Assembly: GCF_036178845.1 (NCBI RefSeq)
Contig: NZ_CP108070.1
Location: 4,464,001-4,528,000 of the forward strand
Source of the DNA: Streptomyces sp. NBC_00271
Lineage (GTDB): Bacteria > Actinomycetota > Actinomycetes > Streptomycetales > Streptomycetaceae
Reading direction: 5' to 3'
Length of the DNA: 64,000 nucleotides
Every line of letters starts with the position of its first letter. Within the stretch, counting starts at the first letter, position 1. A program made the position numbers and the translations under genes. The notes beneath the pieces were generated by a model. It was not told the DNA's origin. It ran no database searches and saw only the letters and a program-made list of their open reading frames with translations. Positions 12,637 to 50,862 of this stretch are shown here, piece after piece.

Positions 12637-13833
12637 TCAGTCCTTCGTGAGAGCGGTCGTACTGCTACCTAGAGTACGTGTAGCGGCGGCTCCCGGTTCC
12701 CGCTGGTGCTTCGCCAGGGGCACCCGCTCGGGCTCCCGGGGTGTACCGAAGAGCATGCGGCGGATGTCCGCGCGGGTCTGCCGTGCCGACTCGCGGGCGG
12801 TGGCCAGGGCCTGCCGTGCCACGCGGCCCACGCCGCGCGCGGCCTCGGCGGCGGGCCGCAGGACCGTGTCCCGGACGACGTGTCCGACCGGTGTCAGCAC
12901 GCTGCGGTACACCCAGCGCACGGGCTCCACGAAGATCCACCGGAAGAGTCGTCCGAGGAACCGGCCGACGGCGAGCGAAAGGTGTCCGGCCACCCGCCAG
13001 GCGTGTCCGAGTGCGTCCCCGACCTCCCGCGCGACGACGGCGAGGACCCGTCCGACCGGCACGATCACCCAGCGCCACAGGGCGAGCGCGGGCAGCACGA
13101 GCAGGATGCGCAGGGTCCAGTAGAGCGCGGCGCCGATCCCGGTGAAGATCATCCGTACGAGCCACCCGAGTCCGCGCGCCGCCCACGCGATCGCCCGTCC
13201 GACGGGGGCGAGGATCCACTCGTACAGCCACAGCGCCGGTACCACGATCAGATGACGGACCAGCCAGGCCACGACCCGGTACGCCCCGAGCGCGACCGCC
13301 GCGACCCCGATCCCCAGGCCCCTGAGCAGCCAGGCGACGGCCCGCCCGACGGGGGTCAGCACCCGGGCGTACACCCAGGCGAGTACGGCGCCGATGCCAC
13401 GGAGCACCCAGGCGAACCCGGCGCCGAGACCGCGGAGGACCCACATGAGCCCGGCGCCGATGCCCCGCGCCACCCAGGCGATCGCGTGTCCGACCGGCGT
13501 GAGCACCGTCTCGTACATCCACACGGCGGGCACGACGAGCAGCACGTACCCGAGCCACGCCAGCGCCTTCCCGACCGGCACCACGGCGTACCGCCACAGC
13601 GTCACCCACGGCCAGACGAACACCGCCCAGGCAACCCACTGGAACACCCGCCCCACGGGGCGCAGCACGGTGTCCCGCAGAAACCTTCCGCCGACCACCA
13701 GGGCGTCCCACAGCATGCGCACCGGCACGACGAGCACGAGGACGACGATCCGCACGGGCAGGCGGATCGCGACCGTGAGGCACCCCTCGGCCGGTACTGC
13801 GGGTCGCTCAGCAGGCGACTTTTCCAGGTCCAT
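12637..13833 (-). CDS. Repeat-built membrane protein with PVG motifs
   Basis: 398 residues, family not recognised. After a short N-terminal segment (MDLEKSPAERPA) almost the whole protein is hydrophobic and built from seven copies of a unit starting P-V-G-R/H/K-A/V, usually followed by AW, a Trp/Arg-rich helix RGxG, and a second helix ending WxYExxLT or WxYxxVLT. Charged residues are mostly Arg, giving amphipathic membrane helices rather than a transporter-like topology. The last 80 residues are soluble and Arg-rich (ARESARQTRADIRRMLFG). Its stop at 12637 lies just before the TIGR03936 gene in the same frame, so the two form an operon. Confidence 0.6.
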   Translation of the reverse strand: MDLEKSPAERPAVPAEGCLTVAIRLPVRIVVLVLVVPVRMLWDALVVGGRFLRDTVLRPVGRVFQWVAWAVFVWPWVTLWRYAVVPVGKALAWLGYVLLVVPAVWMYETVLTPVGHAIAWVARGIGAGLMWVLRGLGAGFAWVLRGIGAVLAWVYARVLTPVGRAVAWLLRGLGIGVAAVALGAYRVVAWLVRHLIVVPALWLYEWILAPVGRAIAWAARGLGWLVRMIFTGIGAALYWTLRILLVLPALALWRWVIVPVGRVLAVVAREVGDALGHAWRVAGHLSLAVGRFLGRLFRWIFVEPVRWVYRSVLTPVGHVVRDTVLRPAAEAARGVGRVARQALATARESARQTRADIRRMLFGTPREPERVPLAKHQREPGAAATRTLGSSTTALTKD

Positions 13834-15909: not shown

Positions 15910-18546
15910 CTAGTGGCCGTCCGTCGGCGGCAGGTCCTGCTCGGTCCAGATCGTCTTGCCGGTGGGTGTGTAGCGCGTGCCCCAGTGGTGGGTCATCTGG
16001 GCGATGATGAACAGACCCCGGCCTCCCTCGTCGTCGTTCGCGGCGTGCCGCAGATTGGGCGTGGTGTGGCCGGTGTCGGAGACTTCGCAGATCAGGGTCC
16101 GGTCGCGGATCAGGCGTACCTGGATCGGGCCGCCGACGTAGCGGATGACGTTGGTGACCAGTTCGCTGACGATGAGCTCGCTGGCGAACGTCAGGTCGTC
16201 CAGCCCCCAGTCGCGGAGCTGCTTGCCGACGGCGGTGCGGATGGTGGCCACCGCCGCCGGGTCCGGGGGCAGCTCCCACTGGGTGAACTGGTTCCGGTCG
16301 AGCAGGCGTGTGCGGGCGACGAGCAGCGTGGCGTCCTCGTCCACGGCCCCGGGCAGCAGGGTGTTCACCGCTCGGTCGCACAGCTCTTCGAGGGACGCTC
16401 GGTGGTCGGCGATGATCCGGGACAGCTGCGCGAGTCCGGCGTCACGGCTGTCGGCCGCCTGGAGGAGGCCGCCCGTGAAGAGGGCGACGAGACTGCCCGG
16501 CGGGAGCTCCAGATCCGTGCTCTGGTAGGGCAGGCCACCGATTCCCAGCGGCGGTCCGGGGGGCAGCTCCGGATGGTCGACGACACCCGTGTGCGGCTCG
16601 ACGACCAACAGCACCGACTCCCCGGCCCGCGCCAGACTGCACTTCCCCGAGACGGGGTCGTACACCGCGTACAGGCAGGTCACGCCCAGGGCCTCGTCGG
16701 CCTTCGGTCTCAGGTGGCCCGGGCCTTGGCCGGCTCCGCGCTCGTGCGCGGTCTGCTCGACCAGGTCGTCCAGGCGGGACAGGAGCTCGTCCGGGCTCAG
16801 GTCCAGCCGGGCCAGCACGCGTACACCCGTGCGCAAGCGGCCCATGGTGGCCGCGGCGCGCAGGCCGTGACCGAGCACGTCCCCGACGACCAGGCCGACC
16901 CGGGTGCCCGACAGGGGGATGAGGTCGTACCAGTCGCCGCCCACCCCGGACCCGCTGTCGGCGGGCAGGTAGCGGCTCGCCGCGTCGACGGCGGCGTGCG
17001 GCGGCAGGCGGCCCGGCAGCAGGCTCCGCTGGAGTTTGAGGGCCACGGCGTGGCCACGGGTGACCAGCGGCATCAGCAGGAGACCGAGCAGCAGGGCGCC
17101 CAGGCCCAGGACGGTGACCCCGCCCGTCCTTCCGATCAGCGGCAGGTCGACGCTGGTCCTGCCGTATTCGGCCTTCGCGTAGACGACGAAGGTGGCGTAG
17201 AGGAACAACAGGAGCATCATCAGCCCGCCGAGCCCCGGCAACACGCCCTTGAAGATCAGGTCTCTGGCGCTGCGGGTGAGGACCTTGCGGTGGTACCAGA
17301 CGCAGGCGAAGCCGGTCAGTCCGTACTGGAACGCGATCGCGAGACCGACCGAGTCGATCGAGTCGGCCAGGACGTTCTGGCTGAACGACGACAGCAGGAC
17401 CAGCACGGCGATCGACACCGCGCCCATGCCGATGGTTCCCCAGGTCGGGGTGAGAAATCTGCGGTGGACCCGGGCGAACCGGGCGGGGACGGCCTTGTGG
17501 ACCGCCATGGAGAAGACGGTCCTGGCCAGGGGCAGGATGGTGGTCTCCGCGGAAGCCAACGCCGAGGTCAGCACCATCAGGATCAACAGTCTCGACAGAA
17601 GCAGCCCCGTGCCGTCGCCCCCGAACACGGCGTCGCCCAGTCCGGAGAACACATCGTTCGCGTTGTGCGCGTTGCCGAGCCCGATGCCCGAGGTGCCGAC
17701 TCCCGCGAACGCCTGCGACGAAGTGGACACCAGCCCGTAGATGATCAGGAGCAGCACAGTGGACATGACCGCGGCGCGCCCCGGGACGCACCTGCTGTCG
17801 ACGGTTTCCTCGTTGACCGTGAACGCGGTGTCCCAGCCCCAGTAGATGAAGACACCCGCGAGGATGCCCGAGGTCAGCGCCCTTGCCGAGGGCACCTCGA
17901 ACGGGTTGAACCAGGAGGCGGAGACGTGGATCGCCGTCGGGGGAGGGTCGGTGTAGACCTTGACCAGTGCGGCGACGGCGAACAGGACCAGCATCGCCAC
18001 TTCCAGGCACAGCAGCCAGCGCTGGACAGCCGCCGAGAACTCGATGCCGACGTAACAGATCGCGGTCAGCACGACGATCCAGGCGATGCCCGCCACGGTG
18101 GTCCACAGTCGGCTCTCCGCCAGTCCGTCCAGGCCCACCAGCCGGAAGCCGTAGGCGGCGGCGATCTCGGCGAGGCTCGCCATGACGATGATGTTGGCGA
18201 CGATGAGGCCCCAGCCGCCCATCCAGCCGGTGCGCGGTCCGAAGGCGCGGGTGGCCCAGGTGAAGGTGGTCCCGCAGTCGGCGTTGCTCGCGTTGAGCTC
18301 CCGGTAGGCGTACGCGACCAGCAGCATCGGGATGAACGCCAGCATGGTGACGATCGGGGCCTGCAGTCCGACCCCGGCCACGATGATGCCCAGCGTGGCG
18401 GCAAGACTGTATGCCGGGCCGGCGGAGGCCAGGCCCATGGCCACCGAGGAGAACATGCCCAGGGCGTCGTTCTTGAGCCCTTTCCGGCCGGACCCCGTAC
18501 CGGGAGCGGGGCGGCTTGCAGACTCGGCGCCGCCAAAGTGCCTCAC
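15910..18546 (-). CDS. Fusion: APC amino-acid permease + SpoIIE/PP2C phosphatase + HATPase anti-sigma-type kinase
   Basis: One uninterrupted 878-residue frame joins three normally separate proteins. Residues about 25-495 are an APC-superfamily permease with about 12 membrane segments (GMFSSVAMGLASAGPAYSLA at the start, GGWGLIVANIIVMASLAEIA, WGWDTAFTVNEETVD). Directly after the last segment (HAVALKLQRSLLPGRLPPHA, residue 499 on) comes a SpoIIE-type PP2C domain with GVGGDWYD and VVGDVLGHGLRAA. Residues about 745-878 are a GHKL ATPase of the RsbW kind: ELIVSELVTNVIRY (N box), CEVSDTG (G1), GGRGLFI (G2). The expected YTDG metal-binding Asp reads FTGG, so phosphatase activity may be reduced. A transporter sensing an amino acid or amine and directly controlling an anti-sigma/anti-anti-sigma switch is inference. 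GTG at 18546 is the chosen start; the frame continues upstream through a tandem repeat. Confidence 0.85.
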   Translation of the reverse strand: MRHFGGAESASRPAPGTGSGRKGLKNDALGMFSSVAMGLASAGPAYSLAATLGIIVAGVGLQAPIVTMLAFIPMLLVAYAYRELNASNADCGTTFTWATRAFGPRTGWMGGWGLIVANIIVMASLAEIAAAYGFRLVGLDGLAESRLWTTVAGIAWIVVLTAICYVGIEFSAAVQRWLLCLEVAMLVLFAVAALVKVYTDPPPTAIHVSASWFNPFEVPSARALTSGILAGVFIYWGWDTAFTVNEETVDSRCVPGRAAVMSTVLLLIIYGLVSTSSQAFAGVGTSGIGLGNAHNANDVFSGLGDAVFGGDGTGLLLSRLLILMVLTSALASAETTILPLARTVFSMAVHKAVPARFARVHRRFLTPTWGTIGMGAVSIAVLVLLSSFSQNVLADSIDSVGLAIAFQYGLTGFACVWYHRKVLTRSARDLIFKGVLPGLGGLMMLLLFLYATFVVYAKAEYGRTSVDLPLIGRTGGVTVLGLGALLLGLLLMPLVTRGHAVALKLQRSLLPGRLPPHAAVDAASRYLPADSGSGVGGDWYDLIPLSGTRVGLVVGDVLGHGLRAAATMGRLRTGVRVLARLDLSPDELLSRLDDLVEQTAHERGAGQGPGHLRPKADEALGVTCLYAVYDPVSGKCSLARAGESVLLVVEPHTGVVDHPELPPGPPLGIGGLPYQSTDLELPPGSLVALFTGGLLQAADSRDAGLAQLSRIIADHRASLEELCDRAVNTLLPGAVDEDATLLVARTRLLDRNQFTQWELPPDPAAVATIRTAVGKQLRDWGLDDLTFASELIVSELVTNVIRYVGGPIQVRLIRDRTLICEVSDTGHTTPNLRHAANDDEGGRGLFIIAQMTHHWGTRYTPTGKTIWTEQDLPPTDGH

Positions 18547-18654
18547 ACTTGATTCCAACGCCGGGCCACTCCCCTCCGCAACAGCGCAGGGGCAGCAGAA
18601 AGGCCCGAATCGGACTCGGACCCACTCCACCAGTGAGTGGAAGTCCACCACTGA

Positions 18655-18720
18655 GCGGATGTCCGAGGCACCTCCGGGCGGATGTCCGAGGCACCTCCGG
18701 GCGGATGTCCGGGGCACGTC
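18655..18720. repeat. 23-bp tandem repeat, 2.9 copies, upstream of the fusion gene
   Basis: Two identical 23-bp units (18655-18677, 18678-18700), each starting gcggatgtccgaggcacc, then a third 20-bp unit (18701-18720) with two differences. The array starts about 110 bp upstream of the fusion gene's GTG. Confidence 0.9.
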
Positions 18721-18733
18721 TGAACACCGCCAA

Positions 18734-18835
18734 GGCCTCGATCACCCGATCGAGTCCCGCGCCCACCTCAGTGCGCGTGACCGCTCCCTGCGGGGGCCGG
18801 TGCGGCGTTCTCGACCGTCAGTGGCAGAAGCTTCT
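18734..18835 (-). repeat. Duplicated 3' end of the radical-SAM gene, copy A
   Basis: About 100 bp matching the end of the radical-SAM gene at 22912 with roughly ten differences. It still encodes KLLPLTVENAAPAPAGSGHAH and a stop at 18768 on the minus strand, and matches some sequence beyond the stop (cctcgatcacccgatcgag). The most diverged of the three copies. Confidence 0.8.
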
Positions 18836-18959
18836 GAGCTGCGGCTGTGGACTTGATCAACGCTGCGACTGCGACCTTGCCGCGATCCACCGATGAGTTC
18901 CGCCTGCTGCGCCGGTCTACCGGGACGTACGCCATCGAGCCACCGACTGGAGACCCACC

Positions 18960-19510: not shown

Positions 19511-19697
19511 AAGGCCACACAGCCTCGCACAAGCCTGGAACGGGCCCTCAGATCCACTCCACCTCGGAGACGATGTGCAAGGCACTCCCAGGACCCGGCA
19601 GGGGCGTCCGAGAGGACACCGACGGCGCCGACGGGCGAGGGGGCGAAGCGCCCACCGCGGCCGAGTGAGGACGAGGTGGCGGCCGTGATTTCGAGTA

Positions 19698-19825
19698 CCT
19701 CGCTCACCTCAGTGCGCGTGACCGGTCCCTGCGGGGGCCGGTGCGGCGTTCTTGACCGTCAGCGGCAGCAGCTTCTTGCCCGTCGGGCCGATCTGGATAC
19801 TCGTATCCATCTGCGGGCGGACGCC
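19698..19825 (-). repeat. Duplicated 3' end of the radical-SAM gene, copy B
   Basis: 128 bp aligning without gaps to 22901-23028 with three mismatches (about 98% identity). On the minus strand it encodes the last residues of the radical-SAM protein (TSIQIGPTGKKLLPLTVK ... GTGHAH) with the stop at 19704, but nothing upstream. The match ends abruptly at both sides. Confidence 0.9.
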
Positions 19826-22792: not shown

Positions 22793-22900
22793 GCCCCCTC
22801 CCGTTCATGGAAGGGGGCCCAACTGGTCACTCAGTCACATCGAAGCGTGGACCTGGCCTCAGACCCACTCCCACCAGGGCCTCAATCACCCGATCGAGAG

Positions 22901-23028
22901 CCTCGCTCACCTCAGTGCGCGTGACCGGTCTCTGCGGGGGCCGGGGCGGCGTTCTTGACCGTCAGCGGCAGCAGCTTCTTGCCCGTCGGGCCGATCTGGA
23001 TACTCGTATCCATCTGCGGGCAGACGCC
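22901..23028 (-). repeat. 3' end of the intact radical-SAM gene, copy C (parent of copies A and B)
   Basis: The 128-bp segment shared with 19698-19825; here it is the natural end of the coding sequence plus 11 bp beyond the stop. Copy A shares a further stretch downstream of the stop (about 22880-22900). Confidence 0.9.
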
Positions 23029-24882
23029 GCAATCGAAGCACGGGGTCCAGCGGCAGTCCTCGACCTCCGTCTCGTCGAGGGCGTCCTGCCAGTCCTCCCA
23101 GAGCCAGTCCTTGTCGAGGCCGGAGTCGAGGTGGTCCCAGGGAAGGACCTCCTCGTAGGTCTTCTCACGGGTCGTGTACCAGTCGACGTCCACACCGAAG
23201 GCGGGGAGGGTCTTCTCGGCGCAGGCCATCCAGCGGTCGTACGAGAAGTGCTCGCGCCAGCCGTCGAAGCGGCCACCGTCCTCGTAAACCGCGCGGATGA
23301 CGGCGCCGATGCGGCGGTCACCGCGGGAGAGCAGGCCCTCGACGATGCCGGGCTTGCCGTCGTGGTAGCGGAAGCCGATGGAGCGGCCGTACTTCTTGTC
23401 GCCGCGGATCTTGTCGCGGAGCTTCTCCAGGCGGGCGTCCGTCTCCTCGGCGGAGAGCTGGGGCGCCCACTGGAAGGGGGTGTGCGGCTTGGGGACGAAG
23501 CCGCCGATCGACACCGTGCAGCGGATGTCGTTCTGGCCGGAGACCTTGCGGCCCTCGGCGATCACGTTCATCGCCATGTCGGCGATCTGCAGGACGTCCT
23601 CGTCCGTCTCCGTCGGCAGGCCGCACATGAAGTACAGCTTCACCTGGCGCCAGCCGTTGCCGTACGCCGTGGAGACGGTCCGGATGAGGTCCTCCTCCGA
23701 GACCATCTTGTTGATGACCTTGCGCATGCGCTCGGAGCCGCCCTCCGGCGCGAAGGTCAGACCGGAGCGCCGGCCGTTCCTCGTCAGCTCGTTCGCCAGG
23801 TCGACGTTGAAGGCGTCCACACGGGTCGAGGGGAGGGACAGACCGATCTTGTCCTCCTCGTAGCGGTCCGCCAGGCCCTTGGCGATGTCGCCGATCTCGG
23901 AGTGGTCGGCGGAGGAGAGGGACAGCAGGCCGACCTCCTCGAAGCCCGTCGCCTTCAGGCCCTTCTCCACCATCTCGCCGATGCCCGTGATCGAGCGCTC
24001 GCGCACCGGGCGGGTGATCATGCCCGCCTGGCAGAAGCGGCAGCCGCGCGTGCAGCCGCGGAAGATCTCGACCGACATGCGCTCGTGGACCGTCTCCGCC
24101 AGCGGCACCAGCGGCTGCTTGGGGTACGGCCACTCGTCGAGGTCCATGACCGTGTGCTTGCTGACCCGCCACGGGACGCCCGACTTGTTCGGGACGACTC
24201 GGGCGATACGGCCGTCGGGGAGGTACTCGACGTCGTAGAAGGCCGGGATGTAGACGTTGCCCGTCTTCGCGAGGCGGAAGAGGACCTCCTCGCGGCCGCC
24301 CGGCCGGCCCTCCGCCTTCCAGGCCCGGATGATGTCGGTCATGTCCAGCACGGCCTGCTCGCCGTCGCCGATGATCGCCGCGTCGATGAAGTCGGCGATC
24401 GGCTCGGGGTTGAAGGCCGCGTGGCCGCCGGCCAGGACGATCGGGTCGTCGAGCGTACGGTCCTTGGACTCCAGCGGGATCCCGGCCAGGTCCAGGGCCG
24501 TCAGCATGTTCGTGTAGCCCAGCTCCGTGGAGAAGGACAGACCGAAGACGTCGAAGGCCTTCACCGGGCGGTGACTGTCCACCGTGAACTGGGGGACCCG
24601 GTGCTCGCGCATCAGCTCCTCCAGGTCCGGCCAGACGCTGTACGTGCGCTCGGCGAGGACGCCCTCACGCTCGTTCAGTACCTCGTAAAGGATCATGACG
24701 CCCTGGTTGGGCAGCCCGACCTCGTACGCGTCCGGGTACATCAGCGCCCAGCGGACGTCACAGGCGTCCCAGGGCTTGACCGTGGAGTTGAGCTCTCCGC
24801 CGACGTACTGGATCGGCTTCTGCACATGCGGGAGCAGAGCTTCGAGCTGTGAAAACACCGATACAGCGGCTTCGGCAGGCAT
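22912..24882 (-). CDS. TIGR03960 family B12-binding radical-SAM protein
   Basis: 656 residues. N-terminal cobalamin-binding-like region (WALMYPDAYEVGLPNQGVMI, GLSFSTELGYTN), a radical-SAM core with the cluster motif FRGCTRGCRFCQAGM (CxxxCxxC), and a Cys-rich tail (CRWTPCFDCGVCPQMDT). The family is conserved across actinobacteria and Firmicutes, with TIGR03936 as its partner; the reaction is unknown, RNA or protein methylation being suspected. The ATG at 24882 has GAAGG 8 bp upstream, better than the ATG at 24927. In most streptomycetes it is next to the PVG-repeat and TIGR03936 genes; here about 9 kb of island DNA separates them. Confidence 0.92.
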   Translation of the reverse strand: MPAEAAVSVFSQLEALLPHVQKPIQYVGGELNSTVKPWDACDVRWALMYPDAYEVGLPNQGVMILYEVLNEREGVLAERTYSVWPDLEELMREHRVPQFTVDSHRPVKAFDVFGLSFSTELGYTNMLTALDLAGIPLESKDRTLDDPIVLAGGHAAFNPEPIADFIDAAIIGDGEQAVLDMTDIIRAWKAEGRPGGREEVLFRLAKTGNVYIPAFYDVEYLPDGRIARVVPNKSGVPWRVSKHTVMDLDEWPYPKQPLVPLAETVHERMSVEIFRGCTRGCRFCQAGMITRPVRERSITGIGEMVEKGLKATGFEEVGLLSLSSADHSEIGDIAKGLADRYEEDKIGLSLPSTRVDAFNVDLANELTRNGRRSGLTFAPEGGSERMRKVINKMVSEEDLIRTVSTAYGNGWRQVKLYFMCGLPTETDEDVLQIADMAMNVIAEGRKVSGQNDIRCTVSIGGFVPKPHTPFQWAPQLSAEETDARLEKLRDKIRGDKKYGRSIGFRYHDGKPGIVEGLLSRGDRRIGAVIRAVYEDGGRFDGWREHFSYDRWMACAEKTLPAFGVDVDWYTTREKTYEEVLPWDHLDSGLDKDWLWEDWQDALDETEVEDCRWTPCFDCGVCPQMDTSIQIGPTGKKLLPLTVKNAAPAPAETGHAH

Positions 24883-24963
24883 CTCGCGAACCTTCGTGAG
24901 CTGGGAGGTACTGACAGGGTTGACCATCCAGCGTAACGCGGCCGGAGCCGGCCCCCGTACGCC

Positions 24964-49689: not shown

Positions 49690-50862
49690 TCAGCGGGTTG
49701 CCGTGGCGCCGTCCCGGCAGATCAGGAGGAGGGCTCGGTCGTCGTTGACGTCCTTGGCGACCGCCTCGATGAGGTGCCACGCGGCGCCGTGGAAACCGCC
49801 CGCGACATAGCGGTCGGCCTCGCCGGTGAGGCGGTCGATGCCCTCGACGATGTCACGGTCGGAGGTTTCCACCAGACCGTCCGTGAAGAGCATCAGGACG
49901 TCCCCGGGCCGCAGCGAACCCTTGACGGGGTCGAACTGGGCACCGTCGTACACCCCGAGGAGCGGACCCTCCGCGGCCTTCTCCTCCCAGCGCCCGCTGC
50001 CCGCGCTGAGCTGAAGGCCCGGCGGGTGCCCGGCGGAGAAGAGTTCGTAGTCGCCGGAGTCCAGGTCCAGGACCAGGTGGATCGACGTGGCGAAGCCCTC
50101 GTCCCAGTCCTGGCGCAGGAGGTAGCCGTTCGCGGCGGGCAGGAAGGCGTGGGGTGGGAGCGATCCCAACAAGCCGCCGAAGGCTCCGGAGAGGAGCAGG
50201 GCGCGCGACCCCGCATCCATACCTTTTCCGGACACATCGGTCAGGACGACTTCGAGCGTTCGGCCGCTGTTCGTACGTGCGGCCACGACGAAGTCCCCCG
50301 AGAACGACTGACCGCCCGCCGGGCGCAACGCCATCTCCCGGTGCCAGCCCAGCGGCAGGCCCGGCAGCTTGCTCTGCACCCGGATGCGTTCGCGCAGGTC
50401 GAAGAGCATGGTGCCGCCGCGCCGCCAGGGCACGCCGACCCGGCTGCGGAACTGGGCGATCAGCAGGCCGAAGAAGCCGCAGGCCGCGACGACCAGGACC
50501 ACGCCCGGGGTGACCCGGGAGGGGCCCTCGGTGTACGGGCCCAGCTTCACCGACTCCACTATCAGCGCGGTGGCGGCGGCCGCGTACAGGCCGAGCAGGC
50601 TGGCGGGGCGCAGCAGAAGGCCGCCCGCGACGATCGGCAGGACCAGCGCGGCCGGGGAGCACCAGACCGAGTTCATCAGCGTCGTGGCCGCGATCACGGG
50701 GATGGTCAGCAGCAGACCGGCCAGTGCGATCCAGTCCGAACCGTCGCCGCGGAAGTAGTCGACGGCGGATCTGCGCACGCCGGTGCGGGCCCGGTGCCAC
50801 TGCTTCTTCAACCGGGCCGTGAACGTCTCGGCTTCCGCGCGCCGCTCTCGTCCTGCTGCCAT
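49690..50862 (-). CDS. Membrane-anchored PP2C/SpoIIE-family phosphatase
   Basis: 390 residues. Four or five membrane segments at residues about 45-145 (IALAGLLLTIPVIAATTLMN, GVVLVVAACGFFGLLIAQFR) followed by a cytoplasmic SpoIIE-type PP2C domain: GQSFSGDFVVAARTNSGR (first Asp), VLTDVSGKGMDAGSRALL, LMLFTDGLVETSDRD (TDG intact, unlike the fusion at 15.9 kb), and a terminal Asp (NDDRALLLICRDG). RsbU-type phosphatases dephosphorylate anti-anti-sigma factors. No partner anti-sigma gene is adjacent. ATG/GTG start at 50862. Confidence 0.9.
   Translation of the reverse strand: MAAGRERRAEAETFTARLKKQWHRARTGVRRSAVDYFRGDGSDWIALAGLLLTIPVIAATTLMNSVWCSPAALVLPIVAGGLLLRPASLLGLYAAAATALIVESVKLGPYTEGPSRVTPGVVLVVAACGFFGLLIAQFRSRVGVPWRRGGTMLFDLRERIRVQSKLPGLPLGWHREMALRPAGGQSFSGDFVVAARTNSGRTLEVVLTDVSGKGMDAGSRALLLSGAFGGLLGSLPPHAFLPAANGYLLRQDWDEGFATSIHLVLDLDSGDYELFSAGHPPGLQLSAGSGRWEEKAAEGPLLGVYDGAQFDPVKGSLRPGDVLMLFTDGLVETSDRDIVEGIDRLTGEADRYVAGGFHGAAWHLIEAVAKDVNDDRALLLICRDGATATR

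Follow-up and report, generated by a model that had tools for sequence, protein, structure and literature searches.

The stretch of Streptomyces sp. NBC_00271 DNA analysed here, called the window (64,000 nucleotides), contains on its minus strand one open frame of 878 codons in which an APC permease, a SpoIIE/PPM domain and an RsbW-type ATPase follow one another (Table 1). The permease part scores above the Pfam cut-off for AA_permease_2 and shows the APC fold, the SpoIIE domain scores 148.9 bits against a Pfam cut-off of 25, with the profile of the phosphatase region matching the SpoIIE structures 5mqh, 3t91 and 5ucg, and the C-terminal domain possesses the N box and G boxes of the GHKL fold (E795/N799, D824/G826 and G842/G844). 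Pfam up to an E value of 0.1 recovered only AA_permease, SpoIIE and HATPase families; SLC5, STAC and histidine kinase domains were absent. A preliminary description of the stretch had proposed a single protein with permease, phosphatase-like and ATPase domains, which frame and Pfam matches bear out.

Table 1. Coordinates of the fusion gene, its parts and aligned residues, and of SpoIIE genes that follow stand-alone permeases
Feature	Position	Strand	Remark
Fusion gene, 878 codons: APC permease - SpoIIE/PPM domain - RsbW-type HATPase	15910..18546	-	
Permease part, residues 29-494	17065..18462	-	12 TM helices assigned from model
Junction, residues 495-511 (VTRGHAVALKLQRSLLP)	17014..17064	-	
SpoIIE/PPM domain, residues 547-746	16309..16908	-	Pfam stretch
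D556, aligned with SpoIIE D628 (metal ligand)	16879..16881	-	Asp present
G692, aligned with SpoIIE D746 (metal ligand, TDG motif)	16471..16473	-	Asp gone
E737, aligned with SpoIIE D795 (first Asp of DD motif)	16336..16338	-	substituted; adjoining D736 present
RsbW-type HATPase, residues 759-867 (E795/N799, D824/G826, G842/R843/G844)	15946..16272	-	Pfam stretch
Same-strand SpoIIE genes after stand-alone permeases	L090:9540-11486, L091:9679-11511, L103:9555-11738, L144:5514-7979		

Three tandem 23-nt repeats (83-100% alike) lie at 18646-18714, about 100 bases upstream of the start of the fusion gene. A stretch of about 135 nt occurs three times, at 18750-18884, 19691-19825 and 22894-23028, with 71-100% similarity to the reference copy, and this repeat takes in the 3' end of the radical SAM gene TIGR03960 (minus strand, 22912-24927); the copies, located between TIGR03960 and TIGR03936/rne, may mark successive insertions. 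A further SpoIIE-domain gene is found in the window at 49714-50265 (394-aa frame), and the source genome as a whole has 98 SpoIIE matches, of which 97 exceed the cut-off and some form mirror-image pairs near the chromosome ends. For most of the many partner-switching systems of this genome we know of no signal.

Distribution and neighbourhood of the fused gene

Scoring of 7995 candidates yielded 5372 homologues, the best 120 of which all extend across the junction and align with 92-100% of the query. In an evenly drawn sample of 199 Streptomyces genomes, the full fusion occurs in 11 (68-100% identity, source genome included) and some match at E <= 1e-140 in 40, while among 296 genomes of the class a full-length match at E <= 1e-140 is present in the source genome alone. 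At least 79 loci of named genomes were compared; among the matches listed, both halves share one frame at 34 and the permease stands alone at 44, with one fused locus (L086) cut by a contig start. Named carriers among the matches listed belong to Streptomyces and Streptantibioticus, besides Kitasatospora aureofaciens (L072) and a record named Streptosporangium nondiastaticum, and Streptomyces sp. NBC_01549 carries two copies (L056 and L070). Full-length fusions thus exist in other genomes, which the preliminary description had been unable to check, and neither of the observations that it had named as refuting, homologues always split at residue 498 or a join or frameshift near 17,050, was made, since homologues span the junction.

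That an assembly error or a frameshift has joined two genes is practically inconceivable. At one homologous locus, L110 of Streptomyces lilacinus, the permease and SpoIIE halves do lie in different frames, by sequencing error or by a real break, and this speaks for such an artefact; the identical join in many separate assemblies rules it out near 17,050, and the homologues refute it for the protein of the window.

Clustering of the open reading frames of 35 fused loci (window included), with a crude ORF caller, brought up no partner gene common to most of them, the largest cluster comprising 11 of 35; a conserved downstream gene, for which the preliminary description had suggested looking, was likewise not found at most of these loci. 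The largest clusters are the neighbours at one genomic site, namely rne (11), a 398-aa gene (12637-13833 in the window; 10), TIGR03936 (6) and TIGR03960 (5). Only the largest clusters were annotated in this partner search, and a STAS or sigma gene may possibly accompany the fusion at some loci.

Origin of the fusion

A quickly calculated permease tree of 69 rows unites all 31 fused permeases in one clade with an SH-aLRT of 100; this clade is nested within stand-alone permeases of Streptomycetaceae and has as sisters four stand-alone permeases, three from Kitasatospora and one from a Streptomyces record. No paralogue with homology to both halves was found in the source genome, where the best phosphatase-side paralogues reach 57% and the best permease paralogue 33%; relatives of residues 495-878 in other genomes reach up to 66-67% identity. 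The homology of PAS/GAF-type relatives and paralogues starts mostly at residues 493-501, two long matches starting at 445 and 448, and all four SpoIIE-HATPase relatives run through Pfam (61-67% identical over 495-878) have PAS inputs, three of them with GAF in addition. Because of these starting points and the inputs of the relatives, the permease can be placed where a PAS/GAF module had been, at the point where the alpha-0 helix (LKLQRSLLP) begins. Judged by tree and homology boundaries, the protein is the product of a single fusion event, in which a stand-alone Streptomycetaceae permease displaced the PAS/GAF module of a SpoIIE-HATPase protein, with the join at about residue 495. In the structure model the TM12 helix (476-509) continues into the junction, but with pLDDT below 50 at residues 497-514.

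Permease and phosphatase genes also occur side by side. At four of 54 stand-alone loci (one contig counted twice), the permease is followed by a separate same-strand SpoIIE gene with PAS or GAF (Table 1), of which only that of L144 includes a HATPase, and at four Modestobacter loci (L111, L118, L125 and L128) a SpoIIE gene lies near the stand-alone permease on the opposite strand, with PAS and GAF in the one run through Pfam (L128). The HMM used to find these neighbours had a training set of 17 rows that included several wrong-strand translations (minus-strand loci had been left unturned), so that genes may have been missed, and its matches were confirmed by Pfam at five of eight loci; the adjacency was spotted post hoc, and the estimate of its chance occurrence presumes two rough figures, about 20 loci and a 0.9% share of SpoIIE genes. 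The adjacency suggests that permease and phosphatase activities were linked before the fusion.

Metal-ligand positions, kinase motif and permease core

The metals of SpoIIE are reported to be bound by D628, D746 and D795 (PMC8080068, PMC5468089). Alignment of a profile of 22 related domains to 5mqh places these at residues 556, 692 and 737, all three SpoIIE numbers being recovered as chain index plus 579 on the presumption that the chain ends at residue 827, and the protein of the window has D, G and E there. The comparison covered 155 partly redundant fused rows, composed of 121 (the window and the best 120 of 5372 homologues) and 34 listed loci. Among these matches listed, all three Asp are found together in only eight rows and at least one position is non-Asp in 147; thinning of the matches listed at 97% identity leaves 8 all-Asp rows among 121, and thinning at 90% leaves 6 among 73. 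By contrast with this erosion in the fused proteins, 27 paralogues of the source genome have Asp at 556, 692 and 737 in 26, 24 and 26 cases, and 19 nearer relatives in other genomes in 19, 17 and 17.

Among the matches listed, D737 is lost in 141 fused rows, D692 in 97 and D556 in six. D692 is lost solely where D737 is lost (97/141 versus 0/14, matches listed). The losses counted by row are not independent events, the tree needing two changes for D737 and 19 for D692. The six losses of D556 all fall among the 14 rows of the matches listed that keep D737; the deep fused lineages L069, L070, L072, L075, L077 and L078 retain D692 and D737 and have Glu (four) or Asn (two) at 556, which is a separate route to the same erosion. 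Seven of the eight all-Asp rows of the matches listed are likewise loci of deep lineages, one (P0112) residing inside the derived clade, and by their residues these three-Asp proteins could be active. The protein of L083, from Streptantibioticus ferralitis, is one with Asp at all three positions. The adjoining D736 is Asp in 141/141 rows that have lost D737 versus 11/14 that keep it (fused rows, matches listed), wherefore it is possibly a substitute ligand; residual phosphatase activity through the conserved D736 is possible, and Glu at 737 may still bind metal.

In the HATPase, N799, D824, G826, G842 and G844 are invariant in 155/155 fused rows among the matches listed. We read the phosphatase catalytic site as having been freed from constraint while the neighbouring kinase site was held; catalysis by the SpoIIE domain has probably been lost in most of the family, the protein of the window included. 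By simple Nei-Gojobori counts on a small number of pairs, dN/dS of the SpoIIE part is below 1 in eight of nine fused pairs (L071-L076, 1.02), with the gene of the window being a member of four of the nine; in the HATPase the pair of the window and L055 is without any difference, and that of the window and L056 has a dN/dS of 0.85.

Changes have also accumulated in the permease. At least 37 of the 38 stand-alone permeases agree at 135 conserved columns; at 93 of these, the conserved residue is retained by every one of the 31 fused permeases. At 141 columns conserved in 28 farther stand-alones, ten sister-side stand-alones differ at 2-5 and the 31 fused permeases at 5-20 (15 in the window), and when each of the 28 is left out in turn, 25 differ at 0-4 columns and three deep ones at 9-21. 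Common to the fused permeases are P89A (31/31), replacement of T340 by L, M or S (31/31) and a changed Q127 (30/31), whereas D118N, Y407Q/H and T333A belong mostly to the derived clade, the window having Q334E, T42A and A43G in addition; the GWD motif of TM6 is invariant. Several substituted residues are polar and in core helices. In the APC fold the substrate path is lined by TM1, 3, 6, 8 and 10, which contain 68 of the 135 conserved columns; the window has 13 changes at the 135 columns, and 11 of them sit in these helices (enrichment P about 0.009, tested after the pattern had been seen). Profile alignments to solved APC structures were too weak to map the changed residues onto substrate contacts, and the changes are therefore placed by helix number only. 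Permease dN/dS amounts to 0.18-0.55 in fused (median 0.35, nine pairs) versus 0.06-0.29 in stand-alone permeases (median 0.16, 12 pairs); the faster change is a weak argument because neighbouring genes of the window show similar values (398-aa gene, 0.27-0.41; TIGR03936, 0.15-0.31; TIGR03960, 0.05-0.10). As the permease has lost residues kept by its stand-alone relatives, the 'transporter' may now be a 'receptor'; we read these changes as altered binding or transport, compatible with a receptor as well as with retained transport.

Proposed signalling role and known systems

The reading we favour, at a probability slightly short of even, is that of a transporter-derived receptor wired through a probably inactive phosphatase domain to a partner-switching kinase whose partner would be encoded elsewhere. 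An ancestral stand-alone APC permease would have been swapped in, once, for a PAS/GAF input module, and TM12 would have been linked at its cytosolic end to alpha-0, a helix of the SpoIIE domain; a ligand bound within the permease core would shift TM12, and this movement would pass through alpha-0 and the PPM switch helices to alter the state of the cytosolic domains. The SpoIIE domain would serve as a non-catalytic coupler or docking domain, and the RsbW-type kinase/anti-sigma domain would act in trans on a partner, either a STAS-domain protein or a sigma factor, whose gene lies elsewhere. Such coupling has precedents, as inputs of PPM phosphatases work via the helix preceding the domain and the switch helices, according to a report on RsbU and to models with PAS, GAF or receiver domains (PMC12143880), and RssB uses the same PPM switch without phosphatase activity (PMC5468089). 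Signalling by CbrA was reported to be independent of its transporter domain (PMC7096432), and coupling between permease and kinase is for this reason not to be assumed. More tentatively, the protein may be a carrier-derived bacterial amino-acid or metabolite receptor, in which transport would be lost or altered, the phosphatase would have become a non-catalytic coupler and ligand occupancy would gate the serine kinase/anti-sigma domain.

The preliminary description had gone further and proposed a direct metabolite-to-sigma-factor link, in which the state of an active transporter would control what an active phosphatase/kinase pair does to an anti-anti-sigma factor. While its fusion, the presence in other genomes and the input position of the permease stand, its working phosphatase is not supported, as at least one ligand Asp is missing in 147/155 fused proteins among the matches listed and two are missing in the copy of the window; as permease core residues are substituted too, the active pair seems unlikely, even if the domain order, the full-length homologues, the eight of 155 proteins (matches listed) with all three Asp, seven of them deep-lineage loci, and the retention of D736 wherever D737 is lost speak for it. 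The direction of control could also be the reverse, with the cytosolic domains regulating transport and the permease as output. C-terminal regulatory domains are thought to control some carriers, such as KimA, and fold comparison of the permease part gave KimA with c-di-AMP as one of its best matches; still, the permease occupies the PAS/GAF input position and is joined to the helix that receives signals in PPM domains, and the changes hit the permease core and the phosphatase site rather than the kinase motif, which makes this quite unlikely. A relic, that is a fusion which spread, lost its use and is now decaying, would account for the lost metal ligands, the elevated median dN/dS of the fused permease and the occurrence of the full fusion in just 11/199 Streptomyces genomes. 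We hold it to be very unlikely in view of a frame open at 34 loci, kinase-motif residues invariant in 155/155 rows (both among the matches listed) and a SpoIIE part with dN/dS below 1 in eight of nine pairs.

A protein composed of APC permease, SpoIIE and RsbW-type domains with an eroded phosphatase site was not found by title or start of abstract among the open-licence papers searched; members bear generic database names ('amino acid permease', 'amino acid transporter/anti-sigma regulatory factor'), and the composite is hence already annotated though apparently undescribed. Already known are transporter-signalling fusions (CbrA, CrbS), polytopic PPM proteins (SpoIIE) and PPM pseudoenzymes (RssB), of which CbrA and RssB most resemble the fusion in kind. 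To our knowledge, the chain of Bacillus subtilis SpoIIE contains no HATPase, and that of the yeast sensor Ssy1 neither a kinase nor a phosphatase domain. SpoIIE likewise has a polytopic membrane part (10 TM) N-terminal to its PPM domain and, unlike the fusion, is described as having a 270-residue regulatory region between membrane part and phosphatase and as keeping D628, D746 and D795 (PMC8080068). RssB, an E. coli adaptor, is likewise reported as a PPM domain that keeps its regulatory switch without phosphatase activity, but with a receiver-domain input, a protease-adaptor output and inactivation by truncation rather than by metal-ligand substitution (PMC5468089, PMC12143880). CbrA and CrbS, SLC5-STAC histidine kinases described as 'transceptors', also carry a whole transporter N-terminal in a signalling protein, and CbrA is reported to transport L-histidine while its kinase phosphorylates CbrB (PMC7096432, PMC13022988); these have SLC5, linkers of the STAC and PAS types and a histidine kinase of a two-component system, whereas the fusion has an APC permease, a TM12-PPM join and an RsbW-type output. 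Rv1364c, OsaC and Streptomyces PAS/GAF-SpoIIE-HATPase proteins similarly unite RsbU-like and RsbW-like domains in one chain, with PAS/GAF input and no transporter, unlike the fusion; Rv1364c (3ke6), the best solved relative of residues 495-878, is further reported to have an additional anti-anti-sigma domain (PMC12143880).

With the fusion, an APC-family permease would join the short list of whole transporters serving as signalling inputs, here tied to partner switching. As members keep all, some or few ligands and close stand-alone sisters exist, the order from carrier plus phosphatase to receptor plus pseudophosphatase should be traceable stepwise. The modular-exchange model for PPM inputs names RsbU-type, PAS, GAF, receiver and HAMP inputs and, in the available part of that source, no transporter (PMC12143880); a transporter helix as linker would extend it. 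Ssy1 is described as a permease homologue that has lost transport and senses amino acids (PMC5890159), in a eukaryote, unlike the bacterial fusion, which, if our reading is true, would be its bacterial counterpart, a one-protein nutrient receptor for partner switching.
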